64,000 nt of DNA from Tridacna crocea (taxonomy: Eukaryota > Mollusca > Bivalvia > Cardiida > Cardiidae), in assembly GCA_943736015.1 (NCBI GenBank), contig OX031069.1, positions 19,349,235 through 19,413,234 on the forward strand, read 5' to 3'. Shown here one piece after another: positions 3,373-63,853 of this stretch. Under the pieces are notes generated by a model. That model was not told where the DNA came from, did not search any database, and was given only the letters and a program-made list of their open reading frames with translations. The number at the start of each line of letters is the position of its first letter. The first letter of the stretch is position 1. The position numbers and the translations under genes are program-made.

Positions 3373-3833
3373 CTAAACCCCTTTACTACACAATGACGAC
3401 TTTTAACGATCCCGAGGAAGAAACCTTTTGAAAACATTGAGGGAAAAGGAGAAAATGCTGGTACCCAGCATTTTCTCCTTTTCCCACAAAGTTTTCTACC
3501 CTATCAAAGAAAAGATTGTTGTGTCATCGATATAGCCACTATAGAAATTTTGTCTGCAAATGCTTTCAATTTGGATAGGTCTAAAATTTTGTCGTGTTGT
3601 AAGGGGTTAACCCTTTACCAAACAATCCCCGGTTTTTACGACCCTGAGATAGAAACCTTTAGAAAACATTGTGGGAAAAGGAGAAAATGCTTGTAATCAG
3701 CATTTTCTCCTTTTCCCATAACATTTTCTATCCTGCTAGAAACAAATTTCAATTTTTGAGTCACGTTTATTTTGTTGTCTGCCAATGCTTTCAATTTGGA
3801 CCAGTCTGACATTTTTTCGTTTGGTAAAGGGTT
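3373..3833 (+). mobile_element. Two HP-A elements head to tail sharing one TTAA
   Basis: The first copy is 3373-3610 and the second 3607-3833. The TTAA at 3607-3610 is the right end of one and the left end of the other. Both palindromes are near intact (3443-3491 and 3671-3720). Confidence 0.85.
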
Positions 3834-3849
3834 GATGCATCTCCATTCT

Positions 3850-4190
3850 TCGTTATACCAAAGTATACCATAATCAATAAACCCATTCCGTGTAACAAAC
3901 GACTAAATCATGAGGTAGTATGGACTTGGGATGCAAAACATTGACCAATGGCAAAAAGATATCGACACAGGTCAGCCTACACAAGGTCTGTACCTTCTGT
4001 AGATGCATCAAGCCTCCTTTTCACAGATTACGTCTCATTATACTTAAATGAGCTGTAGATCGTTTTCCGTCATTGTGTCCGCGTCGATTCTGCTGAGCGC
4101 AGGTTTATGATCAACATCAAATCAGACTGCCCAGAAGATGCAGTCTGATCTTGGAACTGTACTGCCCGACTCGGTAAAGGGTTAAAACAC
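3850..4190. repeat. Worn repeats: family L piece and family D palindrome piece
   Basis: 3920-4030 has the GACTTGGGATGC..TTGACCAATGGCAAAAAG motif found again near 24060. 4100-4186 has ATCAGACTGCCCAG..GATGCAGTCTGATCTTGG, the family D palindrome, ending GGTAAAGGGTTAA. There is no coding signal. Confidence 0.45.
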
Positions 4191-4248
4191 ACACACACAT
4201 CGCAATACATGTACTTGTATTTTTGTAATTAATTTTGACTGGAAATAC

Positions 4249-4778
4249 GACGGGAGTTCAATAAGTAATGCCCATGGCCCACTTCCAGTTTTCTGATCTA
4301 GCTGAAATTTTGCATGTGCAATGATTTAGGCTATATCTATATGGGTTATGTGGCAAATTACAGCCCTGAATTATTTGTGGGGTCTGATTTACAGGTGTTT
4401 GAAATGAGTCAGGTGTCTGACTGACATCCGATAGAAAAATTAGTAAAAATTACTTCTTGTAACCCAATGGTCATTTAAATTCTAGCACAGACTTCCGGTC
4501 ATGTTTGAATTCACGATGCCAGCGTTTTACAAGGTCATATGATGGGGCATTATCACAATAAGTAACTTTAATTTCATCAAAAGTCTCCTGTGGTGCGCGA
4601 CACTCAACAGGCTCCTATTTCACAACTGACTCAGTTCAAACACCAGTAACCATAATTAGTTCAGAGCTGTAATTTGCCACATAACTCATAGCGATATAAA
4701 TCATAACACAGGTAAAATTTCAGCTTGATCAGACAACTGGAAGTGAGTCAGGCGCATTACTTATTGAACTCCCCTCGA
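4249..4778 (-). mobile_element. Internally deleted mariner with long inverted repeats
   Basis: The ends are GGGAGTTCAATAAGTAATGC and its complement. The similarity extends about 165 bp inward on both sides. On the minus strand, 4600-4484 encodes PSYDLVKRWHREFKHDRKSV, matching the HTH region of mariner transposases (APSY.TVKRW..EFK..R.SV). The catalytic domain is absent, so it cannot move on its own. Confidence 0.75.
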
Positions 4779-4839
4779 ATATCGGTCTAGCCCTGTTTTT
4801 TGAAAAAAGGGGGTTTCATGCACGATCAAAAAAGAATCT

Positions 4840-4990
4840 CCTGAGATTAGTCTGACTGACCTGTGTCAATACTTTTTGCTGTTGGTAAATTTTCTTTGTG
4901 TCTAGGGACCATTCTACTTCGAGATCAAGCCATTTGTTAGACAAAATAATCCATCATGATGCATCCAACATGATCTGATGACAAGTCTGT
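4840..4990 (+). repeat. Family L repeat copy
   Basis: ACTGACCTGTGTCAATACTT, TTTTGCTGTTGG and GGGACCATTCTACTTC recur at 16390-16560, 24000-24120 and 37510-37620. The nature is unknown; the region has no ORF of note. Confidence 0.45.
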
Positions 4991-6632: not shown

Positions 6633-6635
6633 CCT

Positions 6636-6785: not shown

Positions 6786-6789
6786 ATAA

Positions 6790-7521: not shown

Positions 7522-10500
7522 ATGCCTCCCGCGACTGGTCTACAGTTTTACCGGAAGCGCCAAACGATTGACCATCTCACTCTCGAAAGACCTCAGTCTC
7601 TCCAGACTTTTCGGGAGTGCGTCAATAATGCTTTGGTTGTCATAGAAACACGAATAGAACTGCTGCAACAGTCTTACTATGGTCCAAATATAGATATAGA
7701 ATACGAGATCAAAAGATGGTTGAATCCTTTATCGATAGTATTAAAGTACTGCCGAATAAGTTTCTTCCTGTGCAAGACCCAACTTGACGACATGGTGATA
7801 GCTTACAAAAGAGCAGAAGGTGATCCAACTTTAGTTGTCGATTTCGACAAAGGTATTGTGAAATCTGTGTTGGATATAATCGATAGAGTGTTACAGTACC
7901 TGAAAACAGGTTTCGCAGACATTATAAAAGACATGAAACAATTAGCTGATTATATGTGGAAATACTGCCTGAGTTTCTCAAGCGCAGAAGGCGACATTTA
8001 TCTAGATACTGCAGTCAATTACGAAAGACAAAGAAAAGAATTTTCTCAAGCAATAAACTTCAATATAGACGATATAAAGAACATGGCCGAACAGTTCGAA
8101 ACCAAAGGAATGAGAGTTCAGGATTTGGGATTCGTCGCCAGGGATCTTGCTGAACGCTGCAAAGCTACCCATGTACCTTTCCTAGTCATTATTCCACAAG
8201 CATTTGAAAATCTTAAACACGCTATTGCAGGTACTAGAAAATGGCTGGAAGCCGATGAAGCCTATGCTGAGTTTATCAAGTTTGACGTAAACGATCTAGA
8301 GGTGAAGAAGGAAGCCCAAGAGAAAAAAGTTAGAGATCTTCAGATTAAGTGTTCAAATAGCGAGCATAGGCTTAAAACAGCAAAGAGACTCCATGGTGAC
8401 CTTTTAGTAGAGGTCAAAGGGTTTGCTGGTAGAGAGTCACTGTTAAGCGTTGAAAAAGCCAACCTTATAGCCCAAAATAAAGATGTTCTTGTTGACCTGG
8501 ATATTAAACAGTTTAGACGTGATGAAATGAAGCACAGACTGGACGAGTTAAGTGACTTTGATAAAGAACGGTACACGGTTTTGAGTAAAGAGATTGCGGA
8601 GCTAGGTGATAGAAGACCGATCATTGACAAGAAGCTTGACGATATCAACAAAAAGCTGGATCTCATCTCTGAAAGACGGAACTCTATGAACAGGAAAGAA
8701 AGCGAAATTTCAGAAGCTAAAGGTAAATTTTATGCAGAGACTTATTACCCTATATCATCGAATTTAAATTACTTTCACAAAAACGAATTTCCTTTACGCT
8801 AACTGCACTTGATAGGTTATTAGACAGGACTCTATGAATAGAAAACAAAATATTTCTGAAGCAAAAGGTGAAGTTGAAACAGTGACTATTTAACTCATTT
8901 CCAAACAACAAAATTTTGTCCAAATCGAAAGCATTTGCAGGCTACAAAATAAAAGTGACTGAAAATTTGAAATTTGTTTTGTGAAGGGTAGAAAACATTG
9001 TGGGAAAAGGAGAAAATGCTGGTTACCAGCATTTTCTCCTTTTCCCACAATGTTTTTTAAAGGCTTCTTTCTCAGGGTCGTCAAAAGTAGGGATTGTGTG
9101 GGAACGGGTTAAACTATATTACCCCGATTTGGAAGTCTTATCACAGAATGAATTTCTTGTACTATTACTGCACGTGCAGAGTTATTTTCCACATTTAGCC
9201 CTTTATCACACAGTCTTGAGTTTTAGGATCAGGGGAAAACAGGCTTTTGGAAACCTTGTGGGGAAAAAAAGAGAAAATGCTGGATACCAGCATTTTCTAT
9301 TTTTCCTACAAGGTTTTCCACGCTTTCGGAGACAATCACCATCATTAAAGCTACAACGAATTTGATATCTGCAAATACATTGAGTTTTCAAGATTTTGGG
9401 CAACAGATACTTTACAAATGCTTTCAATGCGGGTTGGTCTTAATCTTTGTCCGGCTATATAAGTGAAGTGAAACTTTCAAGCCGATAGTAAAACCATAAC
9501 TTTGTTGCCTCAAAGAACTATTGGGCGGAGAAGATATCCTTACCGGACAGTGTAGACCTAGGATCACAATGCACGTTATAAGCAGTCTGATCTTGGATCT
9601 ACACTGTTCGCAAAACTTTCTTGAGTCACACTCAGCCGCCAAATGATTAAATTTTATCGCCCAATAAACTTTTCCATTTACAGTCGAAGTCAAACAGATG
9701 AAGAAAGAGTTCCGTAAATGTGAGGTGGAGTTAGAACGTCTCGAGGTGAATTTAAACAGACTGAAGGAGATCTATAGATACAAAACCACGCCGGAGATAC
9801 TGAAAAAAATATTTCATGGAATGCCTCTCACAGCAAGACATGTCGTCAATAAGGGAAAACGTCCCATAATGGGTAATGCTTAGATTGCTTTCGTTGTCTG
9901 CGCATGTCATATTCTTCGAAGATTCGACTGTCTTATATGACGCATCACTAGCCCCAAAAGCGGGCTGACTGTAATATTACGCGCTATAAAGTAGCAGTGT
10001 AGAAAATAGCTTTTGTCAATACGCTTGAGGAATAATAAGACCAGCTTTAGCTCCAGATTTCTCTAGACTGCTGATCATAGCTGAGTGAATTGCACGAGGT
10101 AGCGTTTTATTGAGTCAACGTTTATTTTAGTTTGAAATTCAAAGTAACGGTAGTCGCGTAGGAAAGTGGTTCGGCTCTGTGCCCAGGATGCCCAAAGTAG
10201 ATAGATGAGTATTTATAGAATGCCATCTAGCGGGAGATAATGAGATTGCTTTAGTCTAGCATACAATAAATGTGAGCAATACACTTAAAAAAATGCATCT
10301 GGAAAAAGTATCGACCAACGTCAGCCTTAACTCATTACCAAACGACAGTGTTTTTGGCTTGTCCAAATTGAAAGCATTTGCAGGCGACAAAATAAAAGTG
10401 ACTGAAAATTTGAAGCCTTTGGAAAACATTGTGGCAAAAGGTGAAATTGCTCGTGACGAGCATTCTCACCTTTTGCCACCATGTTTTCTACACTATCAAA

Positions 10501-13500
10501 AGGTGTCATATACACATAAGAAATGGCTTCATTCTTGATGTTATTTAGGGTCAATTAGAGATACCATAGAATCAGAAATGCCTTATGGGGTAAAGGGTTA
10601 AATGCATCACGAAGATGCATTAAAATCCCTTTTGTCAGAGTACGACTCATGTAGTTCCGGTCACAGACTAACACTATAGTTAGGGCGGTATGATGGAAAT
10701 TCCTTTGTATATTGACCTTTTTTTTTTACTTAAAAAAACAAACAAACAAACAAACAAAACAGGACCGAGTGAAAAATGATTCGGTTAAGCAAAAGTTTGA
10801 AAGTAAAGAAGATCGGATTCTGTGTTTCTTGTTCTTTCAATAGTATTTATTTGAAGTTTGAAATTAGGTCGTATGCAGTCACAAAATGGATAGATCTAAC
10901 AATAACTTTGGAACATATCCTCGGGAGCCTCGGTCAGTTTTCTGCATTTCAAAATCTTCACTTTAACCCTTTCCCACACAATAACGACTTCTGACGACCC
11001 TAGGAAAGAAGCCTTTTGAAAACATGGTGGGAAAAGGAGAAAATGCTGGTAACCAACATTTTCTCCATTTCCCACAATGTTTTCTGCCCTATCAATAAAC
11101 AGTTGCAACATTTGAGCCACATTGAAATTGTCATCTGCAAATGCTTTCAATTCGGACAGGACTAAAATTTTGTCGTCTGGTAAAGGGTTAACTCAATTAC
11201 CGAAATTAAGTGTCAAGATGCGGACACTGTAGATTCGAGATCTTAATTTACGCAGTCCGCAAAAGCTATTTAGCTGTTTGGGTCGCCACTAGAATTGACG
11301 AAGTCAATATGTATTTCAGATAAGCTAGAACGAGCATGTAAAATAACCGCCACCCACATAGAAAACGAATGGGGTAAACTGTACCGTGGACTACCTTTTT
11401 ACCCCTTCCGTGGCGAGCAGACGATTGTAAATGACGTGGACGAAATTGGAAAGGAATACATGAGGCATATTCCAGAGGAGATGTGCAGGTAACGAAAGCT
11501 TCTTTTAGTCTGCAGTTTTGCACTGTATGGTATTTAAATCTCCGTTTTCACTATCATTCCAATCATTTCACGGCGAAGCCCAGCCAGGTAGCTAACTGGT
11601 TAGCGTATCTGACGGCATACTTAGAGGTTGCTAGTTCGATACCCAGTTAAGGTAACTTTCTTTCCGGCGACTTTTCGCCTGTTACCTCTGATTCATGTGA
11701 GAAAAGTATTCAGTGACTTGAAAAGATGTGTCAGTGCTGGTGTGAGAAAGCCCGGAAACATATGCAAAGGTGCAATGTCCGTTGTGACGGTTTAAACAAG
11801 AGGGCCACGATGGCCCTGGATCGCTCACCTGAATTTTTGAAAGGGACATAGCCTATTTTTTTTTTTTTTGAGGTATTGAAACATTGGAAACAAAATTATT
11901 ATTTTGCCAAGCAATTTTCAAAAGGTCACCTGTAAAAGTAATTTCAAAATCTGACCATCAGTTTCAGAAAAGAAGAATGTTTAAGAATTTCTTCATTTCT
12001 GCATAGTGCAAGTAGCCCCCATTCACTAGAGCCATGTTTCTTGATGGATCACAATTTGGTGAACAATTTTTGAAAAGGGTCACCAAAGGAACACCTCTGT
12101 GAAATTATTTCAAAATGTGGCCAGCGGTTTCAGAGAAAAAGAATTTTCAATAATCTCTTCAGGTCTCTATAGCGCGAGTAGCCCCCTTTTACCAGAGACA
12201 TGTTTCTTGACAGATCAAAATTTCGCGAACAATTTTTGAAAAGGGTCACCCAAGGAACATTGCTGTAAAATATTATAAAATTTGACCAGCAGTTTCAGAG
12301 AAGAAGAATTTTCAAGAATTTCTTCATTTCCATAGAGTGCGAGTAGCCCCCATTCGCCAGAGCCATGTTTCTTAACGGATCAAAATTTCATGAACAGTTT
12401 TTTGAAAAGGGTCATCCAAGGAACATCTCTGTGAAATTATTTTAAAATCTGATCAGCCATTTCAGAGAAGAAGAATTTCAAGAATTTCTTCAATTCTGTA
12501 TAGTGCAAGTAGCCCCCATTCACCAGAGCCATGTTTCTTGACATATCAAAATTTCGCGAACAAATTTTTAAAAGGGTCACCCAAAGAACGTCCCTGAGAA
12601 ATCATTTCAAAATCTGACATGTTGTTCCAGAGAAGAAGAATTTTTAAGAATTTCTTCATTTCTGTACAGTGCAAGTAGCCCCCATTCACCAGAGCCATGT
12701 TTCTTGACGGATCAAAATTTTGCGAACTTTTTTTGAAAAGGGTCACCCAAGGAACATCCCTGTAAAATCATTTTAAAATCTGACCAGCGGTTTCAGGGAA
12801 GAAGATTTTTAAAGAATTTCTTGGAAAATTCCATTTGGTTGCCATGGCAATCAGAGTTTTTGACGAAATCAAATTCTGTGAGCAATTTTTAAAGAGGACC
12901 TCCCAAGGAACAATCCAGCCAAGTTTGGTCCAAATTGGCCCAGCGATTTAGGAGTTGATGTTTAAAGAATTGTTGATGACGCACGACGGACGACGCACGA
13001 CGGACGACGGACACCGGGTGATCCTAAAAGCTCCCCTTTAGCTCTGGTGAGCTAAAAATAATGCCTAAATAAAACACATGATTTGAAATTTACCGGGATG
13101 AGGGTTGCACGTTTATCTTAACAACACAGCCAGAGATTCTTCTTGGAACTGTTGAAAATCATTGGATCGGAAATCACTACCTTCATGCAAACTTTCTTCA
13201 ACAAAATTACGTATTTTCATGATTTTCCATGATGTTGATCTGATTTGACAACAAACGTTCTGGTTCATCATCTTTTCCGGTGTCATAAAAACAGTTTAAA
13301 GTTTCTGATTTCGTCTGTCCAGCGGTATTTTTCCCACATGATAAGCACATTTCATGTGCGATTTCAAAGTAGATCTACATTCGTCCGTAGGTAAAGATCG
13401 ATCATTTTATTACAATCAGTGCACAACGCTTCGATTTATATGTTGTCCGATGCAAATGGTTTCAGCCATGACTTGTATCGGTCCAGTTATATCTACACGG

Positions 13501-16247: not shown

Positions 16248-19200
16248 TCAAAACATGTCACAATCACAGAAAACACAAACTTCCACAGCTGGTAACCAGG
16301 GTAATTCTGAAATATGATATTAAAACTGGTTTTATTTTTTACAAATGAACTGTGTTTATTCATTACCACTTTTTCATATTGTATGAACTTTGCCCTTGCT
16401 ACTGATCCATGTCAGCCTCTACAGTCTGCACAGGCTGACATAGGTAAAAAAGTTTTGCAATTTGTAAATTTTCTGCATGTCAATGGACCATTCTATTCCC
16501 TGATTCAGTTAGTTGCGAGACAAAATTGAAGTTTATTAAGGATCCATAATTATGCACTGACTTGCTACGTTTAATGGACCATGGAGATGCTTTAACCCTT
16601 TACCCCATAAGGCATTTATATGGTATCTCTAACTGATCCTAAATAACAGCAAGGATGAAGCCCTTTCTTATGTGTATATGACACCTTTTGATAGTGTAGA
16701 AAACATTGAGGCAAAAGGTGAAATTGCTCGTCACCAGCAATTTCACCTTTTGCCACAATGTTTTCCAAAGGTTCCTACAAGCAATCCGTAGAAATGAGTA
16801 TCTATGGAGTAAAGGGTTAATCCCTACAAGCACCACTTACATCTTTAAATAAATATGTCAGTTATATTAACACAATCATGGTTGAATTATTTAAGGGTTT
16901 TCATAAGTATTAGGTTGGTAACCTATAGTGTCTTGACCTTGGAGGCTCTTACAGTACGCACTAACAACAACAGCAGGATATGGTATAAAACACTTAATCA
17001 AGCAGTACTGATTTTAGCAACCCTCTGGGAACAAGCTTCTGATAATTATGGTGGAAAAAAGAGTGTTTACTTAAAAGAGTCATTAAAATATGGTATGGTT
17101 TCATAGGAGGGAGCCCGCCCGGGTGGCTCAGTGGTAAGCGTGTTGGACTCATGACCTGGTGGTTGTGAGCTCGATACCCGGTTGAGGCGAACTTTCTTTC
17201 TGGCGTATTTTCGCCTCTTACCTCTGCTGAAACATTTGAGAAAAGTAGTCGATGGCTTTGGAAAGAAAGTTGTGTAAGTACCGGAGTGAGAAAAACATGT
17301 GTGTCACTGACTGCCATGATATGACCTTAGCTGTTAAAGTGGTGTTAAACGCCAATACAACCAACCAACCATCATTAGAGGGAAATGGGACGAGGGAAGA
17401 GGGAGATGGAAATTAGGTCCATTTTACGAGAATGCTTTCAACACTGTCTTGTGTAACTTTGTTCTAGGTGATGATTTCTAAATCATTTGTAAACTGGTCC
17501 TATCTTTTTATGACCTTAAATAAGATAGCTTTTGCAGTCATTGTCGGAAAAGGAAAAAATGCTAATAACTAGCATTTTCTCCTTTTCCCACAATGTTTTC
17601 TATCCTTCCACAGACAAATCTTAATCTCCACTTATATCATTTTGTCATCTGCAAATGTTTCCTGTTTCAGTGAATCTAAAATTCTGCTGTTAGGTACAAA
17701 TTAATACAAAATTACCTTGTAAATCTGACAGAGATAGAGAGATAGCCTGACATCCTGCACATCTTCTATAGTCCATCTTTGTACAGGGTTTAAGTGTATA
17801 ACAGCACATACCTAGAAAATGACCAAGACACTGCTTTAAATCATTACCAAACGACAAAATTTTGGACTGGTCCAAATCGAAAGCATTTGCAGACGACAAA
17901 ATAAAAGTGACTGAAAATTTAAATTTTGTTTTGTGAAGGTAAGAAAACATTGTGGGAAAAGGAGAAAATGTTACCAGCATTTTCTCCTTTTTCCACAATG
18001 ATTTCTGAAAGCATCTTTCTCAGGGTTGTCAACAGTATTTCCTTCCCATCCGCTTAACCCTTAGGCTGCCAGTGCAACTCAATGACCTTTTACGGAGAGT
18101 GTAGATCAAGATCAGAGTGCACAGAATACGCAGTCTGATCTTCAATTGATACTGACCCATATGATCATATTTTTCCCCTAAACAAAAGCTATGAAAACAG
18201 GAAAATTTGGCTTTTTACTGTCAGTTTAAAAGTTTCATTTCACTTATCTAGTATGATAAGGGTTAACATTTTTAGCCCTTTACCAAACAATCCCAACTTT
18301 TAACAACCCTGGGAAAGAAGCCTCTTGAAAACATTGTGGGAAAGGAGAAAATGCTGGCAACCAGCACTTTCTCCTTTTCCCACAATGTATTCTACTTTTC
18401 CAAAGTCAAAATTCAATTTTGATTCACATTAACATCTGCAAGTGCTTCCAATTTAGACAAGTCCAAAATTTGGTCTTAACCCATTACCACACAATCCCTA
18501 CTTTTGACGCCCCTGAGAAAGAAGCCTTTAGAAAACATTGTGGGAAAAGGAGAAAATGCTGGTAACCAGCATTTTCTCCTTTTCCCACAATATTTTCTAC
18601 CCTCTCCAAATCAAATTTCAATTTTTGATTCACATTTATTTTGTCGTCTGTAAATGCTTTAAATTTGCACCAGTCGAAAATTTTCTCGTGTGGTAAAGAG
18701 TTAAGGAGTTAAACCCTCAAACAATTCTATTATCAGAGCCACCTGTTACCTGTCATTCATGAATGTTTTCAACTTGAAAAAAGCCTGGAGTTTCATAGTC
18801 TGCTTAACTTTTTACCAAACAACCCAATGTTGGACTTGACTACATCCAAAGCATACGCAGACGACAAATTAACTGATGCTCAAATGAAGATTTTTGTATG
18901 GTAGAAAAGTTGAAGAAGGTAGTTACCAGCATTTTCTCCTTTTCCTACGATGTTTTCAATAGCTTTCAAATTTCCAACTTTTAACTCACAATCCCGATCT
19001 TTAATATTCTAAAAGAGAAAGCTTTTGAAAACATTGTGGGAAAAGGAGAAAGTGCTGGTAACAAGCATTTTCTCCTTTACCAACAATGTTTCCTGTCTTT
19101 CTCAAAAGGAATTTTTATTTTTGAGTCTTCTTAAATATATGGCCTGTAATGCTTTGAATTTGTATTAGTCATTTAGTAAAGACATCTGCCTTAAAATTTG

Positions 19201-22200
19201 TTTCAGGAGGTACTGAATTATATCATCTTCGCAAGCCAAGGCTGACAATTCACTATGCTACTCTACCCATAGCGGATCGAGCTTGATTTTTACATTCCCC
19301 TGATAAGCTTTTTCATTGGATGCAGCCAGCTCTAGCTGCAAAGAATGAAATCGCTCGTAGCATTGCATCTTTGATAAGAATAGAATAAGGTCGCGACCAT
19401 TCGAATAGAAGGTAAACATGGAAACCCACGTGGATGTCTGCTTATCGCTTCATGTTGAATTTATATTCGTAAGCAGTTTGTAAAACGATACTTCATTGGC
19501 TTTTAGAAATATGATATAAAGGGGGGTAATAACCAGTATCCAATAAAGGGCGCTTCGCAGGAATCTCAAAATTGGGCTCAATCAGCCAAGATAAGATCCA
19601 CATAGTGATCGTAACCTTGGCTCGCGAAGATGGAGTTATGTAGACAAAAATCAAAAGTAAAAGACAAATCATTTACATGTATAACAGTCATTCCTGAAAT
19701 CTGCATAAATACCAGTATACATACCAAATCTGTGTCCATTTTCACACTGCCATGAAAACTGTTTTAATACCATACTTAAAGCAGTTAAGGATATCAATTG
19801 TATAAAAATTCTTAAGTTTTTTTTTTCAACTTAGATCAAATCTGATTTCATTGTATACTGAATTACTTGTATTTAACACATTTTAACAGTACATTAATAG
19901 ATACTCATTTCTGCACATTGTTTGTAGGAGCCTTTGGAAAACATTGTGGCAAAAGGTGAAATTGCTCGTGATGAGCAATTTCACCTTTTGCCACAATGTT
20001 TTCTGTACTATCAAAATGTGTCGTATACACATAAGAAACGGCTTCATCCTTACTGCTATATAGGGTCAATTAGAGATACAATAAAAATGCCTTACGGGGT
20101 AAAGGGTTAAAGTACAAACAGATTAGGAAAAAGATTTTTTGAAGCTCTAACCTTAGTTTGTAGCCTGGAAATGTTTTTGAACTTGAGCAGGTCTAAAATT
20201 TTGTTGTTTGGTAAAGCATTAACAAAGAAATCTTCTCCAAAAAAACACAAGTACATGGACAACCCAACCCACATGTAATAGAACAAAGATATAACTTGGT
20301 AACAAACACATAAACAAACTCACTCATACATGCATTTATTCACTCATTACGCGGAAAACTAAAAAAAATATTAACTGACTAGAAACATTTTGATAATATG
20401 CACAACTTCTCTCCCAAGGGAAGGTTTTTATAAAATTTTGAAATCAGAGCCAGTAGTTTCTAACAGTTGGTGTAGGAACTACTGTCTGTCCCTCCGTAAA
20501 CAATTACTAAAAAATCTTCTTCTCTGAAACCGCTGATCAGATTTCAATGAAACTTCACAGAAATGATCCTTAGGTAATACACTTTCAGATCACTTCAAAG
20601 ATTTGAATTCCATGAAGATGCACAGACAAGGCTGTGACTTTATACTAGGATGAAATTCCCAAAATTTGTTCAGGGAGACTCCCCTCACTCCAATGATTTA
20701 CATATCCGGTCAGATCTCATACACTTTGGCAATAGTAAGCAAAATACAGCCCTTTGATCTGATTATAAAGAAAACACAAACAAACAAATACAAAGGATAT
20801 TACAGGAACAAATAGGGCAATCGACTAGTTTTGGTTCAACATCTCTCTTAAAAGTGTCCTGTATCAAGGACCGAAGTTGATTTGCATATTCCAGATCTGT
20901 GGTACTGATGTTGTTCTTAATAAAGTGTACAAATTGCGTGAATAGATCCAACTCTGACAAAAAAGAAAAACAACTTTTGATTAAAATTTTTAAACAAGTA
21001 AACATTGAAAACTGTTTTTTTTTTTTTCTTTCCTAAGAAATCAGCTTCAATGGTGGAAAAATATTCTATCATGAGCATTGTGACATTCAGCACCAAGGAA
21101 ATTTACCCTTAAGTCTGCTTCATATGGCCTGCAACATGGACCAAAGGAGCATGTGGACATTTGCGTAGAGTGTTGTCTCGGATCAGCCTGCACAATCCAC
21201 ACAGGCTAGTCCGAAACAACACTTCCTGATTTTAGGCAATTTTCTTTTTTGTGCAAATCTACCGTAGGTAAAAATCTAATGATGTTGTTAACTCTTTACC
21301 ACATAATGACGACTTTACACGCCCCTGATGAAGAAGCCTTTAGAAAACATTGTGGGAAAAGGAGAAAATGCTGGTAACCAGCATTTTCTCCTTTTCCCAC
21401 AAGGTTTTCTACCCCATCAAAGCAAAATTGCACCACATGAGCCGCTGTGAAATTGTCGTCAGCGAATGCTTTCAATTTGGATAGGTCTAAAACTTTGCTG
21501 TGTAGTAAAGGGTTAAGTGCCATCTCCGATTAACCTGCATGTACTGACATAACAACAATATATTTTTGCCTTGTACAAATTGAAAGCATGTGCAGAAAAA
21601 AATTTCATTGTGGCTCAAATACAGCATGTTTTGGGAAAAGGAGAATATGCTAGTTACTAGCATTTTCTCCTATTCTCACAATGTATTCAAAAGGCATTTT
21701 TCTCAGGGTCGTTGAAGGTTGGGATTGTGTGGTAAAGTTTAAAGGCATACATTATATTTCACATATATTATACTTCATGTGTCTATTTTCAGAAATGTTA
21801 TGGGTAAAGAAATTTCGTAATTTAAGCTAGGGGGAATTATTTCCCTGTCACATTGAATATTTTCCTCCTGCCGACAATCTGGAACTACTTTTTTATTTCA
21901 ATGCAATGGCTAGTTTTAAAAGTGGCATTCATTGACAAAATAATCAGAGTAAATATAATATATAATTTATTTCATCAGCTTGTGGTCAATATGGGGAAAT
22001 ATTTGCCTCAAAATGGAAAGGTCCGCGAAAATAAGTCGTGCCTTATGGCAGGCACTCATTATTTTCACAAACCCTTCCCTTTTTTGGCAAATATTTCCCC
22101 ATATTAACCCTTTACCCCATAAGGCATTTCTATGGTATCTCTAACTGACCCTAAATAACAGCAAGGATGAAGCAGTTTCTTATGTGTATATGACACCTTT

Positions 22201-25200
22201 TGATAGCATAGAAAACACTGTTACAAAAGGTGAAATTGCTCGTTACGAGCAATTTCACCTTTTGTCACAATGCTTTCCAAAGGTTCTTATAAGCAATACG
22301 TAAAAATGAGTATCTATGGAGTAAAGGGTTAAGCACAAGCTGATGAAATAAACTCTATTTGCAATATTTTCCAGGGTACTAAAACACCTGATTGTTTGGT
22401 AAAGAGCAATACTTATTTTGTCTGATAATGCTATCAAACTACTGCTGGTGCCCAAAATTTACCTGAATCACTGTAGCTTCCCTTCTCTCTTATACACATA
22501 ACACACTGTTCAATGTACATCCCTATAAGTTTGTAAGAGACTTTTAAGAATTGTTCACTGAGATCCGTACACTGATCTTCATAACTGTATTCTTCACTTC
22601 CCATTTGAAGCTATCAAAATTCAAAAATCAAGATCCATTTGAATAAGGGTACTAAAAAAGATTTAAAAATAGTTGTCCAGCATAGTAGCTTTCAGGACTT
22701 AACTTTTTACCACACAATTCCAACTTTTAATGATGCTGGAAAAAAAAAAGCCTTTTGAAAACAGTGTGGGACAAGAAGAAAATGCTGGTAACCAGCATTT
22801 TCTCCTTTTCTCACAATGTTTTCTACCCTATCATATAGAAAAATCATCTTTTTAGGTACTGTTAATTTGTCATCTGCAAAATGCTTTCACTTTCGTCTGG
22901 TCTAAAATTTTCTGTTTGTGAAAGGGTTAAATTGTTGTCTACAAATGCTTTCAATTTGGACAAGTCTACATTTTGTCATGTTGTACAGAGTTATAAAAGA
23001 AAAATTACACCATTTGAGCACCAATGAAATTGTCATCTACATAATGCTTTCAATTTGGACATGGCTAAAATTTTGAAGTATGGTAAATGGTTTACCTCTT
23101 TACCACATGACAAAATTTTACACTAGCTGAAACTGAAAGCATTTGCAGATGATAAACTTAATTAGGCTCTAACTGTCTAATTTGTCTTTGTTAGGATAAA
23201 AAAAATTGTGGGAAATGGAGAAAATGCTGGTTACCAGCATTTTCTCCTTTTCCCACCATGTTTTCAAATGCCTTCTTTTTCAGGGTCGTTAAAACTTGGC
23301 ATTGTGTGGTGAAGGGTTCATGCAGTAGGCTGCTGGTTCAAAAACCCAGCCAATTTCACTCTCACTGCTGAAAATCATTTTGATATATGTGTGACAGCAG
23401 CCAGTGGCTTACTAGGAATATTGTGTGAAGTATTGGTAAAAGCAACTTCAAAATGGCATGATAGGTACTCTGGTGTGGTGTTTAATAACATACAAACAAA
23501 GAGGGAAAAAAACAACACAACAAACAAATCAAGTACTAAAAACACTCCATCAAATTTTTCTATTTTTCTCCAACTCTTTACCTTTTAGAAGTAGTTTTAA
23601 CTCTTTAGCACAAAACAAAATCACAGATCAGTCCAAACTGAAAGCTTTTGCAGACAACAATGTAAGTATGGCTCAAAAGTTGAACTTTGTCTTGGGAAGA
23701 ATAGAAAATATTATGGGAAAAGGAGAAAATGCTGGTTACCAGCATTTTCTCCTTTTCCCACAATGTTTTCAAATGTCTTCTTCCTTAGGTGCGTTAAAAG
23801 TAGGGATTGTGTGGTAAAGAGTTAAAGCAAAGATACTTGAGCTATGTACATTCCTCTTATTTGATTTTAGTTCTGTGTCTTTAATCTGCATCTTTACAAT
23901 CTTCAAATACACATAGGAGTGATGATCTGGCAAAAGGAGGCTTAAGGTGTCTATGTGATGCTTTATACCAAGCCAGACACATCATAATGCTAGACCCCTA
24001 ATATAACATTGCTTTACAATGCTGAATCATGGAGTAGAATGGTCCTTAGGCATTCAGAAAATTGACCAATAGCAAAAAGTCTGTGCTGGCTGACACGGAT
24101 CAATGCTTTTTGCAGATGCATTAACCCATTACCACACATTATTTCATGCTTTCCGGTGGGATATCAAGAAATAGCAGTGAAAACATTTTTCGATCTTACA
24201 CTGGTACCACCAGTGAAAATACCGACTGTCATGTTCTTGTTGCCTAGGTAAATTGCGCGTGCCTAACAACCAGATGGGAAATATGACGTCATATACCTTA
24301 CATTTCTCGCGCTTGACGTAACGTTGCTATGCGGGAGAGGTACGCCACAGGGAATAAGGGAAAAGAACTGTACTGAATTTTGATAAAGCTCCTACCAGAA
24401 AGGGTTAAAAGCATAAAATAAATAGAATATTTGTTTTTTTCGGTGAAAGATCGAAATTTATTTCATCTCGTGAACACCATCGGTAATATTTTCACTCGTG
24501 GCTGCACCACTCGTGAAAATATTACCGATGGTGTCCACTCGATGAAATAAATTTCGATCTTACAGCGAAAAACACAAATATCCTCTATATCCCTACTTTT
24601 GACGACCCTGAGAAATAAGCCTTTTGAAAACATTGCGGGAAAAGGAGAAAATGCAGGTTAATCTCAGTCTATTCTTTTTGCTATTGGTCATATTTCATTA
24701 ATCAGTTGCTTGCTGAACAAAATGGATTTCTTGGACCTATATTCCGCTCTTTACCACACAATCCTAACTCTTAATGATGCTGAAAAAGAAGGCTTTTGAA
24801 ATCATTGTGGGAAAAGGAGAAAATGCTGGTAACCAGCATTTTCTCCTTTACCCACTGTTAAACCTTTATTGTTTGTCTAACGCTTATTTTTACTCAAAAA
24901 TATATCACTAACACTGACTGGATTTCCTCCACATGTAAAACAAAACACACCAGATTTTACCTCTCTACTGGAGAGTAACATTGTCAATAAAGTTAAAAGA
25001 GTTATCTTTCTTTCTATATCAACATTAATTACAATGTTTTTTTTTTGGCTACCCCTGGGTAAGAATTAAAACAAATAAAAAATGAAGAATAACTGAATGA
25101 AACATCTAAGAGTAACCATCATAGGATTAGACTATCCTCAGGTCACGGGGATTATTCTGCCCCTTAAAACTATCTCAAGGAATTGCAAAATCACACAAAC

Positions 25201-46200: not shown

Positions 46201-49200
46201 ACTCAGGACTCTAGCCTCATTGTGAAAAATTCACGTTTTTGACTCTAGCTTTGTTCTAAACAATCTAGTACTCAACAGATTCCAATATGAAAAGATGCCT
46301 TGAACTCATGTGGTACTATCAAAACCATTTCCCTGGCTATATAATGGATATTTTGTATGCATTAAACAAGTTTAGGTACACCACTGAATTCAGTTTTGTA
46401 ATATTTACTGCAAAACCAGGATAAACTGGAATTTTCGACTTGGCTATCATTTCACCCAAATGTTAAACTGGTTTGGTATTGTACAATATCATTGCTTTTT
46501 CTTCTCCCTTCACCATACAAGTTCTAATAACACTAAGGCAAGAGCCTTTTGAAAATATTATGGGACACCAAAAAAACCCCAGCATTTTTCAGCTTTTCTC
46601 AATAAGTTTCCAACCATTTGCATGCAAATCCAATCATTTAGCCAACTTTCATATATTCTCTACAAATACTATCATTTTGGATATGTCTAAATTTCTATCA
46701 TTTAATAAAGGAGAATTCATACACTTAAGATAATGAAAGCTAAAAAATCAATCATTGAACTGTTATAATAATTATACATGTGAATGATAATGTATTTTTT
46801 TGTGTAAACTTAACAGTGGAAAACTTTTCAATACATTGTTGGGGAAAAAGAGATAGTGCTTGCTCAGTAGAAAAAATTTATTGATCTAAGATGCTTCAAT
46901 TTAGTTTGGGTGGTAAAAAGGTAAAAAAACTTTACTTTGTTCCATTTGAATTCTGTTTGCCCCTGAGTATACACAATCAACCTGCAGTCTCTTGACAAGG
47001 TTGCTAAAATACTTCTGAAATAAAAAAGTGAAAATTAAAATACTTCATAAACTCTTCACCAAACCACAAAATTTTAGGCTTGTCCAAATCGAAAGCATTT
47101 GCAGACAACAAAATAAAAGTGACTGAAAATTTGAAATTTGTTTTGTGAAGGGTAGAAAGCATTGTGGGAAAAGGAGAAAATGCTTGTTACCAACATTTTC
47201 TCCTTTTCCAACTATGTTTTCTAAAGGCTTCTTTCTAAGAGTCATCAAAAGTACAGTTTGTGTGGTAATGGGTTAACCCTTTAAAACACAATCCTGAGCT
47301 AGGAAGAAGCATTTTGAAAACACTATGAGAAAAGAAGAAAATGATGGAAACCACCATGTGCAATGGAAGACGATGAAATAAAATGTAACAAAAAAATATG
47401 GAATATCACGCTGTAGTAGCTTTTGTGATGCTTGAATTTGATCTTTGTATCTTATAGTAAGTAGCCTAGGCAGCTATGTCCTGTATTTGCTTCTCATTGT
47501 TAAAGAAAATTATGACACAAAAAATTCCTATGCAGCTGAAACAAATGCAAGCCCCAAGAAAATCACTATAACCCTTTCCCAAACAAGCCCTTTTTTTACG
47601 TGTCTGCAGTACAAGTCTTTAGAAAAGACTGTGGGAAAAGGAGAAATTGCTCTTAACGAGCAATTTCTCCTTTTCCCACAGTATTTTCTACCCATTTGGA
47701 GAACTTTCTGCCATTTTTATCAAATTTGAAATTGTCGTCTGCAATCTCTGAGTTTGGAAGAGTTTGCGCAGGCTAATCCTAAACAGCAATTTACGACTAC
47801 ATTAGATTTTGTGCTACAGTAGATTTGCACAAAACAGAAAATTACATAAAAATGGAAATTGTCAAATCGGTTTAGCCTGTGCAGACTACATAGACTGATT
47901 GGAGATGAAACTGTAACTCTTTACCACACGACAAAATTTTAGACTGGTTCAAATGGAAAGCATTTGCAGACAACAAAATAAAGGTGACTGAAAAACTGAA
48001 GTTTGTTTTGGGAAGTGTAAAAAACACTGGGAAAAGGAGAAAATGCTGGTTACCAGCATTTTCTCCTTTCCCCCCAGTGTTTTCAAAAGGCTTTTTTCTC
48101 AGGGGCGTCAAAAGTAGGGATTGTGTCGTAATGAGTTAAGCAAATGTCCGAATGCTCCTTTTTGCATGTTGCATGCCATTTGTACATTTGTACACTACCT
48201 TCCTTTCTCATCAGCTCCAAGAGGTGACCATGCTGCAGCACAAAATGCAGTGACAGGTAGAGGATCTTGTGGGTACTTAAAGGGATTCATTATCTTGTCT
48301 GTGGATAGACTGAATATGTCATCTGAAAAATACACAGTTAAATCAATTGAACTTATATTACATGCATTTACATGTATAAAACTTTACATAAAACTTTAAC
48401 CCTTTACTCCATAGATACTCATTTCTACGCATTGCTTGTAGAAGCCTTTGGAAAACATTGTGGCAAAAGGTGAAATTGCTCGTGACGAGCAATTTCACCT
48501 TTTGTCACAATGTTTTCTATGCTATCAAAAGGTGTCATATACACGTAAGAAATGGCTTCATCCTTGTTGTTATTTAGGGTCAATTAGAGATACCATAAAA
48601 ATGCCTGATGGGGTAAAGGGTTAATATGGAGTGTATCAAAGCCATTGCTTTTTTTTTTCAAAAATACTCTTGTACTATCAAGAAAAAAGTTTTAGCTTTT
48701 TACCAAATGACAAATTTTTAGACTGGTCCAAATTGAAAGCACTTGCAGATGACAAAATATTGAAATTTGTTTCCAGAAGGGTAGAAAACACTGTAGGAAA
48801 GGGAGAAAATGCAGGTTACCAGCATTTTCTCCTTTTCCCATATTGTTTGCAGAAGGCTTCTATCTCAGGGTCGTAAAAACCTGAACTTGTTTGTTAAAGG
48901 GTTAAACAAAGAAAGCCTTTTTCAATCTGTTTTTCCATCTGACTGTTTCAGTTGTTTTGGTCCAGCCACAAAACCTGAATGTTTGTGTTTGAATAGAATT
49001 TGCACAGGTCTGACCTTTGTTGACAAAGTGTTTGATAACATGCTGAGAAACGGAGAGGGTGATAAAAACTAGCAATCTCCCACAATGTTTTCTACCCTTT
49101 AAAAGACACAAAATTTGAACCATATTTTGAATTTTGTCTCCTACATTTGCTACGTTTTCTTTTTTCTCATTTTTTTTCTAGTATAGATCTGAGATCAGAT

Positions 49201-53194: not shown

Positions 53195-56100
53195 ATGTCT
53201 TTCACATTCAACTTCGGTGACCAAAATAAAAGTAGGCTTAAATGCACAAGAAGTGGTAAAACTCCGACCCTATTATGGAAATCCGCATTGCACTCTTTCA
53301 CTGTGTAAAATTTCAGATACTGTATTTTCAAGAACATTTTCCTACTTGTTGGTAGAAGAACAGTAATGCTATGCTTCAACATATTTATGCAAATTATTGC
53401 TAAGGAATAACTGTAAAGGCTCAGATAGCAGATGACAGGTTCTTTTTTGGTTCGTAAGCTAAGGCCGGGAAATTCTGAGGGAGTCTCATCACTGTCATGT
53501 AAAAGCAAAAAGCTATAGAGCCCCCAGTTAGTTGTGCTATTGAAACTAGGACCACTAGTACAGATAACCATCCCCAAATGAGTTTTAGGTTTTGACTAGT
53601 CCCATCTAAGTACAGAGATTTTTCAGACAAGAATTGTGTTATAAAGTGTGCACAGATGGGTATCTTCACAGATTTTGTGCTCACTTTAAACTCATATTTT
53701 CACAGAAAATACCAGTTGCTTGTGTATTCAATAATCCTTTCTTTTAAATACAACCAAACGACAAAATCACAGGTTTGTCCAGATGAAAAGCATTTGCAGA
53801 AGACAAAAATGTCTGAAAATTTGAAATTTGTTTCTTGAAGGATAGAAAAGATGGTGGGAAAAAGGAGAAAATGCTGGTTACCAACCAGCATTTTAAGGCT
53901 TTTATCTGAGGGTCTTCAAGAATAAGGATTGTGTTGTTACGGGTTAACCTTAATGTAACTTGGGCTGGCTGGATTCATTTTATCAGTAATCAATCAGAAA
54001 AGTAAGAATTCAAAGTGGCCTTAGTTAACTCTTAACCACACGAGAAAATTTTAGACTGGTCCAAATTGAAAGCATTTGCAGGTGACAAAATGAATGTGAT
54101 TCAAGAAATAAAATTTGTCTTAGTAAGGGAAGAAAACACTGTCGGAAAAGGAGAAAATGCTGGTTTCCAGCATTTTCTCTTTTTCCCACGATGTTTTCAA
54201 AAGGCTTTTCTCACAGGGGTGTTAAAAGTCGATATTGTGTGATAAAGAGTTAAAAGCACGGTGCTGCTGGGTAAAGAGATAAAGTTTGTACTTTCATGAT
54301 TACTTGCAGGGTCTGATACAGAAAGGGATGAAAAAGAACAGGTCTCTGACAATGTGATAGATGAAAATGCCATGCATTGTGAAGAAATTACTCCATCAGA
54401 TACAAAACTGGTAATGAGACCGAGTGTTCTTAAAAGGATTTTTTTATTCTATTATAAGGATTTAACCCTTTACTCCATAGATACTCATTTCTATGCATTG
54501 CTTGTTGGAGTCTTTGGAAAACATTGTGACAAAAGGTGAAATGGCTCATGACGAGCAATTTCACCTTTTGCCACAATGTTTTCTACACTATCAAAAGGTG
54601 TCATATACACATAAAAAATGGCTTCATCCTTGCTGCTGCTTAGGGTCAATTAGAGATGACATAGAAATGTGGGATGGGGTAAAGGGTTAAGTCTTTCCCA
54701 CACAACAAAATTTCAGAGTCCTGCAAATTAAAAGTATTAGACAATAAATTTTGATGATGCTGAAATGATAAATTCTTGTCCTTGAAATGGTAGAAAACAT
54801 GGTGGTAAAAGGAGAAAATGCTGGTTACCAGCATTTTCTTCATTTCCCATGATGTTTTCAAAAGGCTTCTTCCTCAGGGTTTTCTAATACTGGGGGTTGT
54901 TTAGTCAATGGTTAAATGTCCGCCACAAACTAGCATGTAATTGTGTCGTGTTAGGTGTAAATGTTTCAAGTAACTCTTTACAGAACAATAATATAATAGA
55001 CTTAGTCTCAATAATGAGACGTTCTGGTGATCTTTTTGCATATCAGAGGCGACCAGTCAAAAAGTAACATCGCCTTTGGGGACAGTTATATGTACTAATA
55101 ATAGACTGCGGTAGTTAAAATTCAAAGCATGTGCTAGAGATTATAATATGTTACTTGTGATAATTACTGCCTTTGAAAGGGTAGAAAAATGAAGAAAATA
55201 TAGGAAAGACCTGCTACCAGCATTTTCTCCTTTTTCCACCCTTCACCAGTCTTGTTTCTAAGAGGCTATAAAACAAACTATTTAAAATTGACCCATTACA
55301 CCACAATCCTTTCTAGTCTAAAATTTTGTTGTTTTGTGAAGAGTTAAAGCATGTCATAGTGAACTAGTGGCAATTGCCTTTGATTTGAAGGAAATATCTT
55401 CCGTTATAACAGAGGAAACCTAGAAAACAGGGAAGGTAATTATCAAAATATTTTGACACAGTTATACCCCCTTTTAGCTTTCAGTCTTAACCCTTTACCA
55501 AATGACAACATTTTAGACTGGTCCAAGTTGGAGGCACTTGCAGATGACAAAACAAACATACATGTATCTCTAAAATTAAAATTTGTTTCCAGCAGGGTAG
55601 AAAACAATGTTGGAAAAGGAGAAAATGCTGATTACCAGCATTTTCTCCTTATCCCATAATGTTTTCAAAAGGCTTATAATTATGTTAGGGTCGTAAAAAC
55701 TAGGAATTGTTCAGTAAAGGGTAAAAAAGTTTTGATATCTAATGATACCTTTATAGTTTACTGAAGATGTTTACATCAAACTTAGTCTAGTTGTTATCTA
55801 ACAAAAGGGAAACTCATACAACAGAGGCATGTAACAGTCAAACCATTTTTGATTGCAGTTGGAATATCTAATTAGCAACACAAGAGCCATTTCATACAGA
55901 CTGACAGATGGTGGAAATGTAAAATGCTTAGACAGCCAACAGGTTGAAGGAATTATAGAGAAAAATCAATCTACAGAGTCCTCTGGGACATGCCAGGCAA
56001 AAAGATCTAACTCGGATTTAATTCCAAATGTTTATGAAGGTATGACTTTTATCACATCACAGGAATTTGACATTCAATAACCAAAATAAATGATAACATA

Positions 56101-62100: not shown

Positions 62101-63853
62101 GGAATCTGGTATGGTGCAAGAACTTCTCTACGTAAAACAGTCTAGAAGCTGCAATATTGTGGTCATTTTTTTTTTTTACTTTACATCAGGATTAAAGTCC
62201 TCATTTGTATATTGTATTTCCATAACATTTGATGTGCACTTGTTTTAGCTTGGCTGTTTTTGAAGATAACATTCAGTATTGTCATATTGCTATGGTCTTT
62301 GTCTGCCTTGTTGTCGTTGTGCAAAAAACCTTATGCATTACAATTATGCCCTGCAACACACGAAAAGGGGAATTCGAACATTTACCTATAGTGATCTGAG
62401 ATCAGCTTGCACAGTCTGCACAGGCTGATCTCAGATGACTCTTTGAGTTGACTGTGCAGGCTGATCTGAGACAACACTATACACAAATGTCTGAAGGCCC
62501 CTTTTTGCAGGTTGCAGGCCTTATCATGTCTCTGTTAATAGCAAAGATGCATGACAACACCTTTATTAGCTAAATCTGATGGTTCAAGCCACATTAATCA
62601 TTTTACCCATTACCACACAATCCCTACTTTTGACGACCCTGAGAAAGAAGCCTTTAGAAAACATTGTGGGAAAAGGGGAAAATGCTGGTAACCGGCATTT
62701 TCTCCTTTTCCCACAGGGTTTTCTACCCTTCACAAAACATATTTCAAATTTTCAGTCACTTTTATTTTTTCATCTGCAAATGCTTTCGATTTTGACAAAC
62801 CTAAAATTTTGTCTGCAAATGCTTTCAGTCTGGATGACTCCAAATTTTTGTTGTTTGATTAAATATTGATTCCAACCTTTTGATAATGATAACAGCTGTA
62901 ATGATCCACATTATTTGAAATTTTGTCATAATTTATGGACATTAACCATCAGATTTGAACATTTTGGGATTCTTTAACCCTTTACCACACAATCCCTACT
63001 TTTAATGACCCTGAGAAAGAAGCCTTTAGAAAACATTGTGGAAAAAGGAGAAAATGATGGTAACCAGCATTTTCTCCTTTTCCCACAAAGTTATTTTACT
63101 CTGCTGGAAACAAATTTCAATTTTTGAGTTACATTTATTTTGTTGTCTGCAAATGCTTTTAATTTGGACTGGACTGAAATATTGTTGCTTGGTAATGGGT
63201 TAAACCTTTTCCGAAGACAATGTTTAAACTCTTCCAAAACTGAGAGCATCCACAGATGACAAATTCAGTATTGGTACAAATAAGCTCTAGGTCTCTGATA
63301 GGGCAGAAAAAATTGTTGAAAAAGGAGAAAATGCTGGTGTCCAACAATTTCTCCTTTGCCCACATTGTTTTCAAAAGCCTTATTTCCCAGGATTTTGAAA
63401 ACCAGGGGTTGTTTGGTAAAGGGTCAACAGGGGGAAAATAATTATGTTCCACTCTTTGTTCTGATGACAAACCCTTTACTCAATAGATACTCATTTCTAC
63501 ACTTTGCTTTTAGGAGCCTTTGGAAAACATTGTGGCAAAAGGTGAAATTGCTCATGACGAGCAATTTCACCTTTTGTCACAATGTTTTCTATGCTATCAA
63601 AATGTTTCATATACGCATAAGAAACAGCTTCATCCTTGCTGCTATTTAGGGTCAATGAGAGATACCAATAAAAATGCCCCATGGGGTAAAGGGTTAAATC
63701 ATCATAATATGATTTTTTTCCTTAATGGTTTTAACAGATATCTTGCAGCAAAATCAAATTATTTTGGAGTGGGTGGGGGTGTGTTTGATTTCATAGACTT
63801 TATAAAGAAGGAAACTTTATTCTGTGCAGATATTTGCTATGATATACAAGAAG
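53195..63853 (+). CDS. METTL18: METTL18-type protein-histidine N-methyltransferase (8 exons, 3' end missing)
   Basis: Assembled as 53195..53231, 54310..54410, 55859..56039, 57216..57304, 58044..58118, 59497..59630, 61411..61509, 63738..63853. Phases match throughout, giving 277 residues plus one base into the next codon. The short first exon MSFTFNFGDQNK resembles the family's N-terminus. Diagnostic blocks follow: SDLIPNVYEGGLKVWEC, the SAM-binding LGSGAGLPG (about residues 137-145), VHFQDYN, YDIILTAETIY, and YLAAKSNYFGVGGG near 240-253. In human and yeast the family methylates a histidine of ribosomal protein L3 (uL3), acting on ribosome assembly and translation. Exon 7 needs the donor at 61510 (GTATCC) to keep the frame; the nearer GT at 61503 would break it. 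The reading ends at a good donor (GTAAGT). An AG at 63995-63996 could open the last exon but only four bases remain. An HP-A copy ends about 23 bp before the exon 4 acceptor. Confidence 0.88.
53743..54253 (-). mobile_element. Two HP-A elements in METTL18 intron 1
   Basis: 53743-53947 has lost most of one palindrome arm. 54025-54253 is complete (loop GCTGGTTTCCAGC). Confidence 0.72.
54462..54915. mobile_element. HP-B (+) and HP-A (-) sharing one TTAA
   Basis: HP-B 54462-54690 and HP-A 54687-54915. This is a mixed-family chain. The first lies about 50 bp after METTL18 exon 2. Confidence 0.82.
54970..55350 (-). mobile_element. Degenerate HP-A with an internal insertion
   Basis: AACTCTTTACAGAACAATAA at the left and CTACCAGCATTTTCTCCTTT at the right, with about 110 bp of unrelated sequence containing TCTCAATAATGAGA in between. 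Confidence 0.45.
55487..55724 (-). mobile_element. HP-A element
   Basis: TTAACCCTTTACCAAATGAC to GTAAAGGGTAA; palindrome with loop GCTGATTACCAGC. Confidence 0.8.
56402..56627 (+). mobile_element. HP-AB hybrid-core element, second copy
   Basis: The outer stem GGGAAATGGAGAAA is HP-A-like and the inner core TTGCTCATAACGAGCAA is HP-B-like. Complete with TTAA ends. Confidence 0.78.
56740..57193 (+). mobile_element. Two HP-A elements head to tail
   Basis: 56740-56967 and 56964-57193. The second has a paired change at the stem base (CACTATGGG, CCCACAGTG). It ends about 23 bp before METTL18 exon 4. Confidence 0.83.
57781..57920 (-). mobile_element. HP-A half
   Basis: Left half (-) up to the loop only (GGAGAAAATGCTGGA). 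Confidence 0.6.
58190..58370 (+). mobile_element. Truncated HP-A element
   Basis: Palindrome with loop GCTGGCAGCCAGC; both termini worn. It begins about 70 bp after METTL18 exon 5. Confidence 0.58.
58650..58855 (-). mobile_element. SINE, family S, reverse orientation
   Basis: The minus strand reads a decayed tRNA head, then CTTTCTTTCCGGCAATTTT and CTTGGAAAGAAAATC of the family S body. It lies in METTL18 intron 5. Confidence 0.65.
59078..59271 (+). mobile_element. HP-A element lacking the left palindrome arm
   Basis: CTTTTGAAAACATTTCTCCC joins the left flank directly to the right arm, so about 40 bp are deleted. Confidence 0.7.
59692..60253. mobile_element. Three HP-A copies after METTL18 exon 6
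   Basis: 59692-59805 is a damaged fragment. 59827-60055 (-) is complete. 60052-60253 (+) lacks its first ~25 bp and shares the TTAA. Confidence 0.76.
60300..60780 (+). repeat. Diverged tandem modules (GAAACTTGGTCAGAAT type)
   Basis: ATGAAACTTGGTCAGAAT recurs at about 60370 and 60519, and ATGAAACTTGGTTAGAAT at about 60710, with matching flanks (TAGAGGCCACATTTT, AATATCTT). Spacing is 149 and 191 bp. Confidence 0.6.
61035..61170 (+). mobile_element. Decayed SINE 3' end, family S
   Basis: GATAGGTGCACTGGCTGCTG and the flanking bases match the tail of the copy at 2150-2315. No head is visible. Confidence 0.4.
61590..62041 (-). mobile_element. Two HP-A elements after METTL18 exon 7
   Basis: 61590-61828 and 61824-62041, near each other's ends. 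The second has loop GCTGGTAATCAGC. Confidence 0.68.
62395..62530 (+). repeat. Family E repeat copy
   Basis: GATCTGAGATCAGCTTGCAC, TGCACAGGCTGATCTCAGAT and a second TGTGCAGGCTGATCTGAGAC make a duplicated palindromic core. Confidence 0.5.
62602..62860 (+). mobile_element. HP-A element with a repeated right segment
   Basis: The TCTGCAAATGCTTTC right segment occurs twice (about 62772 and 62813). The palindrome carries an unpaired-looking change on both sides of the loop (GGTAACCGGC). Confidence 0.7.
62974..63428. mobile_element. HP-A (+) and HP-A (-) sharing TTAA
   Basis: 62974-63203 and 63200-63428. The second has loop GTGTCCAAC and ends GTAAAGGGTCAA. Confidence 0.75.
63470..63696 (+). mobile_element. 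HP-B element
   Basis: ACCCTTTACTCAATAGATAC to GGTAAAGGGTTAA; palindrome intact. It ends about 40 bp before METTL18 exon 8. Confidence 0.85.

Follow-up and report, generated by a model that had tools for sequence, protein, structure and literature searches.

A 64,000-nucleotide stretch of the genome of the bivalve Tridacna crocea (contig OX031069.1, positions 19,349,235 to 19,413,234; the window) carries many copies of two families of miniature inverted-repeat transposable elements (MITEs), HP-A and HP-B (A and B hereafter), with a central palindrome in which a change on one arm is matched by its complement on the other arm much more often than expected by chance, at some sites recurrently in copies with unrelated flanks. 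The elements are ~229 bp in length, flanked by TTAA, with TTAACCCTTTACC as the typical start and GGTAAAGGGTTAA as the typical end, and their palindrome is 67 bp, with 33 pairs and one unpaired centre base. We consider it moderately likely that these are non-autonomous piggyBac-like MITEs in which two layers are superimposed, arm matching within resident copies and constraint on the palindrome in the lineages that amplify.

Abundance and families of the palindromic elements

The initial annotation of this DNA proposed that two TTAA-ended families with central palindromes occur across the window, and this is borne out both by arm searches and by the elements read. Allowing up to three mismatches, the HP-A arm query gave 140 matches in the window (shuffle mean 0.00) and the HP-B arm query 68 (shuffle mean 0.03), two lists that overlap because the A and B arms differ by exactly three bases. 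The sequence CCCTTTACC, with at most one mismatch, is present 106 times versus 10.5 expected. Fifteen stretches of the window were read; most have TTAA-flanked elements and some have only a partial element. The palindrome is near-perfect, as first described, but longer than the ~50 bp then assigned to it, and elements are present in the originally given range of 3373-63696 but begin before it, with copies also upstream of 3373 (for example, arms at 2707-2755).

The window lies on C14, one of the 31 contigs in an assembly of 1.049 Gb. In the whole genome, the exact A arm occurs 207,655 + 207,015 times, the exact B arm 17,420 + 17,490 times, and a perfect 35-bp A core, with the centre base left free, is found at 173,858 places. 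A profile search of 183,158 bases, comprising the window, 19 kb around matches on contig C1 and ten 10-kb loci placed at round coordinates chosen by the analyst, identified 221 copies or fragments (206 A and 15 B) that make up 21.7% of these bases. The ten loci alone have 84 matches and a mean coverage of 14.6% (range 0 to 29.3%); two of them (L043 and L044) are without any copy and the family is therefore unevenly spread. When this small ten-locus sample is extrapolated, the elements seem to fill ~15%, roughly a seventh, of the genome, with ~0.9 million copies or fragments as a rough genome-wide figure.

With sites numbered outward from the centre of the palindrome, the palindromes of the A and B consensus sequences are distinguished by sites 3, 8, 13 and 20 and by the unpaired centre base. 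All four site differences are complement swaps (G-C to C-G or A-T to T-A) matched on the opposite arm, and alignment reveals A and B flanks that are much less alike than the palindromes, both in agreement with the initial annotation. A further family, C, has the B state at sites 3 and 8, the A state at sites 13 and 20 and mostly C-G at site 26; flanks are alike in three of four C-type copies, and all four are nearer to A than to B. The core common to B and C occurs 24,108 times genome-wide. Among the 52 places listed, all on C1, 32 are B and 20 are C, and none is mismatched at site 13, although the search pattern allowed a mismatch there. There is also a sub-lineage of A in which site 26 alone is changed. 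Intermediate forms therefore exist between A and B, and the difference between these families was not a single leap; that family C carries the inner two of the four A/B changes hints, suggestively only, at several differences having changed in one tract. Five of six lineage-level changes are transversions. As single-stranded DNA, the A, B and C hairpins fold at -37.2 to -38.3 kcal/mol.

Matched changes on the two arms

A comparison of paired with unpaired substitutions, as suggested at the outset, reveals a clear excess of the former. In the 170 of 206 A copies that have a recognisable palindrome and were used for pair statistics, 5,417 cognate pairs include 117 double changes, 75 of which are complementary, versus 27.9 complementary doubles predicted from non-cognate pairs of the same base type. 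Genome-wide, counted in otherwise perfect 35-mers, site 14 has 8,219 and 8,143 one-sided changes and 2,870 doubles, versus 385 expected under independence, and a direct non-cognate control (site 14 left, site 15 right) gave 430 and 436 doubles. At site 12 there are 3,686 and 3,748 one-sided changes and 432 doubles, versus 79 expected; for sites 15 and 10 doubles only were counted, 1,150 and 281, respectively. Among the places listed, which are the first ones on contigs C1 to C3 and not a random draw, the double changes are complementary at 44/50 for site 14, 36/50 for site 12, 37/50 for site 15 and 44/50 for site 10, versus 47/100 for the non-cognate control. The rare types T-A and C-G together account for 18/50 of these places at site 12 and 11/50 at site 15, and for 1/50 at site 14 and 4/100 in the control. 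By individual type, the 50 places at site 12 include 18 A-T, 11 T-A and 7 C-G, and those at site 10 include 41 C-G, 2 G-C and 1 T-A. Scaling on the non-complementary doubles, we estimate that, of the one-sided changes at site 12, roughly 1 to 5%, depending on type, have since been matched.

The terminal repeats of the same elements, ~200 bp apart, provide a control. With two marker pairs removed, 25/1,763 cognate pairs are complementary doubles versus 107/6,445 non-cognate pairs, and so there is no excess in distant repeats, consistent with the expectation of quasipalindrome correction that the arms be close together. The two lineage-marker pairs do have an excess (36/285 versus 23/1,147 non-cognate), which is a lineage effect. 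In the A profile, columns 5/223 and 7/221, in the terminal repeats, have paired subfamily changes at the lineage level.

To separate founders from recurrence, copies were read for site 14 (40 of the 50 listed, 39 complementary and one not), for site 10 C-G (20 of the 41 listed) and for site 12 (20 of the 36 complementary copies listed, namely all 11 T-A, all 7 C-G and 2 of the 18 A-T). At site 10, 17 of the 20 copies are nearest to one flank cluster, and C-G at this site is mostly one founder. The possibility raised initially, that all such differences trace to a single founder, holds to this extent but fails for sites 12 and 14. The 11 T-A copies at site 12 are nearest to nine, and the 7 C-G copies to six, of the twelve flank clusters, with mean flank identities of 0.62 and 0.60, respectively, versus 0.63 for random A copies; the 39 complementary copies at site 14 are nearest to ten of the twelve. 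The median flank divergence of paired copies is 0.185 at site 14 and 0.207 (T-A) and 0.213 (C-G) at site 12; the reference values are 0.116 (32 cores without a change) and 0.126 (27 cores changed on one side). Since unrelated flanks and greater age characterise the paired copies at sites 12 and 14, these paired changes arise repeatedly, and arm matching under such circumstances points to resident copies rather than to movement. The annotation had proposed two alternatives, selection on the hairpin or copying between the arms as elements move; the copying is supported, but in resident copies, and the selection takes the form of constraint in amplifying lineages, as described below.

Constraint on the palindrome and alternative explanations

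In 181 near-full A copies, columns with an alternate base at a frequency of at least 0.18 number 0/67 in the palindrome, 29/134 in the flanks and 3/28 in the termini (Fisher P 3e-6, palindrome versus flank). Twelve clusters of at least five copies hold 167 of these 181 copies and, in all twelve, the consensus palindrome base is identical at all 67 columns, the plurality being weak at a single column in one cluster and at two in another. None of the 59 one-sided classes with at least six copies is flank-related at P<0.01. Of the 12 paired classes with at least three copies, only site 26 is flank-related (n=11; 0 of 500 shuffles), the other 11 being compatible with recurrence. Within clusters, the palindrome has a divergence of 0.098 versus 0.168 (164 copies). 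This difference is not counted as proving repair, since residual subfamily structure and misaligned flanks could produce it. Arm copying on its own is not expected to slow substitution, yet the palindrome is constant, from which we infer that source elements need an intact palindrome.

Under the favoured reading, a change on one arm within a single insertion sometimes becomes matched on the other, as the pair statistics demonstrate, and this probably occurs when replication switches template between the adjacent inverted arms, or by mismatch repair in an extruded hairpin. In lineages that keep amplifying, the palindrome is nearly invariant and the recognisable lineage-level changes are paired, so that a foldable palindrome probably helps amplification. 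Families A, C and B, and the A sub-lineages with C-G at site 26 or site 10, would then be arm-matched variants that became sources in several steps. A more specific proposal, which we regard as tentative and rather doubtful, is that the hairpin is a cis-acting amplification device that folds when single-stranded at the replication fork and promotes transposition or donor restoration, so that only copies with intact hairpins become sources and arm correction keeps dormant copies competent. No DNA transposon is known to rely on a self-correcting internal hairpin for its spread.

Several observations weigh against the favoured reading. Most one-sided changes stay one-sided and climb steadily with age, from 2.1 to 8.7 per 33 pairs over quartiles, and matching must therefore be slow. 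In a truncated A element present in seven duplicated places (L025-L029, L034 and L037), a shared one-sided change is unmatched in all seven, and further, private changes are also one-sided. Site 10 shows little beyond one founder, and at site 14 the A-T state, present across many flank clusters, outnumbers by far every other paired type. Non-complementary doubles are also above simple independence (about 121 at site 12), and copy age therefore accounts for part of the excess over the one-sided product. The classes that define family C are not significantly flank-related (P 0.10 and 0.41 for sites 3 and 8, respectively), and family C itself rests on three copies with alike flanks and on the genome core count. 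The clusters were built from 181 copies found by a whole-element profile, so that weak lineages are missed, and 14 of the 181 are outside clusters. Finally, that amplification needs the palindrome is only an inference.

An explanation that is purely mutational, in which template switching keeps the arms alike and the hairpin is an unselected passenger, is attractive for arm matching in copies whose flanks are unrelated and which have probably lost mobility; it is unlikely, however, because arm copying should not lower the substitution rate, yet diagnostic columns abundant in the flanks are absent from the palindrome, and because one-sided changes are absent at the lineage level (0/59 classes). 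The converse, that pairing alone is selected, with all paired changes having been selected in sources before insertion and no arm-to-arm copying in resident copies, agrees with the recognised lineage-level changes being paired, but the paired site-12 and site-14 changes in old copies, dispersed over many flank clusters, would need many separate selected founders, and we judge this to be quite improbable. Founder events or gene conversion between elements might instead have spread a limited set of paired palindromes without recurrent arm copying. The nearly single lineage of C-G at site 10 (17/20), the flank-related C-G at site 26 and the unusually common A-T at site 14 all suit such a history, whereas the three paired types at site 12 would each need donors, and the T-A and C-G copies there have flanks no more alike than random; we judge this, too, to be improbable.

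Symmetry might also be kept because a protein, for example a transposase dimer, binds both half-sites. Excerpts from PMC11707139 report that short palindromes within the transposon ends are bound by a dimer of the cysteine-rich domains of piggyBac and piggyBat, which lends this some plausibility, but the palindromes so described are short and near the ends, and a tolerated half-site change would allow one-sided lineages, none of which was found (0/59 classes). Protein binding, which we consider unlikely, bears in any case only on the constraint in amplifying lineages and is compatible with arm matching in resident copies. Half-swapping through the palindrome, which would produce elements made of two left or two right halves, was rejected. 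In a survey of 152 palindromes, 45 were unclassified on at least one side, and of the 107 with both flanks classified, 105 are ordinary left-right; the exceptions are one A-right/B-right mosaic and one weak A-right/A-right call. Linkage across the palindrome is also not below right-flank linkage at the same distance (mean r2 0.046 and 0.029).

Element ends, possible partners and related systems

The TTAA columns at both ends are 0.81 to 0.92 conserved in the 181 copies. Elements start CCC and end GGG, the third base on the right, GGG side (column 223) often being A in A subfamilies. According to excerpts from PMC9587614, Kolobok elements have a TTAA-specific target duplication, as here, with one lineage especially rich in bivalves, and have 5'-RR and YY-3' termini. 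The CCC...GGG ends read conflict with this terminal rule, and an assignment to Kolobok was rejected; judged on sequence, these ends fit piggyBac instead. The annotation's suggestion of a piggyBac-type transposase is therefore sustained by the TTAA and the ends, but a gene with matching long termini was not found among 30 piggyBac loci, with ends resolved in only 13.

These 30 loci were fetched from 118 piggyBac matches in the genome, and 26 have no stop inside the match. Seven of the 13 resolved elements share the first 11 bases, TTAACCCTTTA, with the MITEs, and none of the 13 shares more. The seven form a group in which the full-length same-strand pairs that were compared have identities of 98 to 99.9%. 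Elements with intact piggyBac genes in the same genome begin TTAACCCTTTA, and cross-mobilisation of the MITEs by the genome's piggyBac may be possible. The piggyBac elements at L014-L019 and L023 (~2.77 kb, ends TTAACCCTTTATATAC) are very similar, have long open frames and so are probably recent. In 12 of the 13 there is no significant match to the MITE palindrome. Three further piggyBac regions (L129-L131) also yielded no autonomous partner, the A and B matches there being in separate MITE-like stretches. At L025-L029, L034 and L037 a palindrome next to the piggyBac genes was discounted as a partner signature, being one truncated A element carried in duplicated DNA; the DNA with this gene and element is repeated in at least seven places, five of which are >99.5% identical where compared. 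L038 has a 3.66-kb piggyBac-like element (360-4020; ends TTAACCCTCTAGA) that holds a diverged fourth palindrome variant of 65 bp (985-1049). The outer 12 bases of this variant, GAAAACATTGTG, are common with A and B, the inner arms are different yet still pair, and its flanks match neither A nor B halves; it is either part of that piggyBac or a nested remnant.

In the window, family A elements are located, all on the forward strand, at 3607..3835 (from a TTAACCCTTTACC end to a GGTAAAGGGTT end, palindrome around 3671-3719), 10963..11191 (left end CCCTTTCCC), 21288..21516, 31547..31776 (with several one-sided changes in the right arm) and 62974..63203. The 67-bp palindrome of the third of these is at 21343..21409, with arms at 21352-21371 and 21381-21400. 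Family B elements are at 16592..16820 and 22104..22332 on the reverse strand and at 48396..48624, 54462..54690 and 63468..63697 on the forward strand, the last with CAAACCC in place of TTAACCC at its left end. A B palindrome of 67 bp, in which both 20-base arms are exact (19946-19965 and 19975-19994), is at 19937..20003. A forward-strand family C element at 47569..47763 is B-like at sites 3 and 8, A-like at sites 13 and 20 and C-G at site 26, and a complete mosaic MITE, also forward, at 10326..10602 consists of an A right-hand end that meets a B palindrome near its shoulder, followed by the B right-hand half, with TTAA at both ends. A known RNA family was rejected as the identity of the hairpin, as Rfam gave only one match over the window, a tRNA at 51500-51572 (39.2 bits), where ARAGORN calls none. 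Another palindromic repeat, GTCTCG...CAGCCTGCGCA...GCGCAGGCT...CGAGACG, is present elsewhere, at L040:2478 and L040:6587; similar repeats occur in bivalve genomes.

With TTAA on both sides, CCC...GGG ends, no gene and a length of a few hundred bases, HP elements resemble MITEs of the piggyBac superfamily, but differ in having a long central palindrome that is more constant than the flanks. Judged by titles and abstract openings, no TTAA MITE with a conserved central palindrome was found in the open-licence literature. Quasipalindrome correction, or template switching, in which one arm of an inverted repeat serves to rewrite the other, so that the arms grow alike and compensatory changes need no selection, is described in PMC8794818, PMC8604942, PMC7954356, PMC3820800 and PMC7202029; arm homogenisation is documented there in bacteria, yeast and apes (PMC8604942, PMC7954356, PMC3820800, PMC7202029) and has been proposed to maintain RNA hairpins (PMC8794818). 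The HP palindromes conform in their cognate-over-non-cognate excess of matching changes and in recurrence, rather than one founder, at sites 12 and 14, site 10 being mostly one founder. They differ in that the evidence comes from many copies of a single palindrome scattered over one genome, with the terminal repeats as a control, and in that the event is deduced from copies rather than observed.

The mutational mechanism is thus already known, and the family constitutes a striking natural experiment for it. Compensatory paired changes are ordinarily regarded as proving that a structure is under selection. In this genome they recur in old copies that are scattered and probably dead, and covariation alone can therefore mislead, a point that PMC8794818 makes for RNA genes. 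The 173,858 perfect cores and the thousands of single-step variants at a site should make arm copying measurable per base, per mutation type and per distance. That the palindrome is more constant than the element's own ends points, in addition, to an unrecognised cis requirement.

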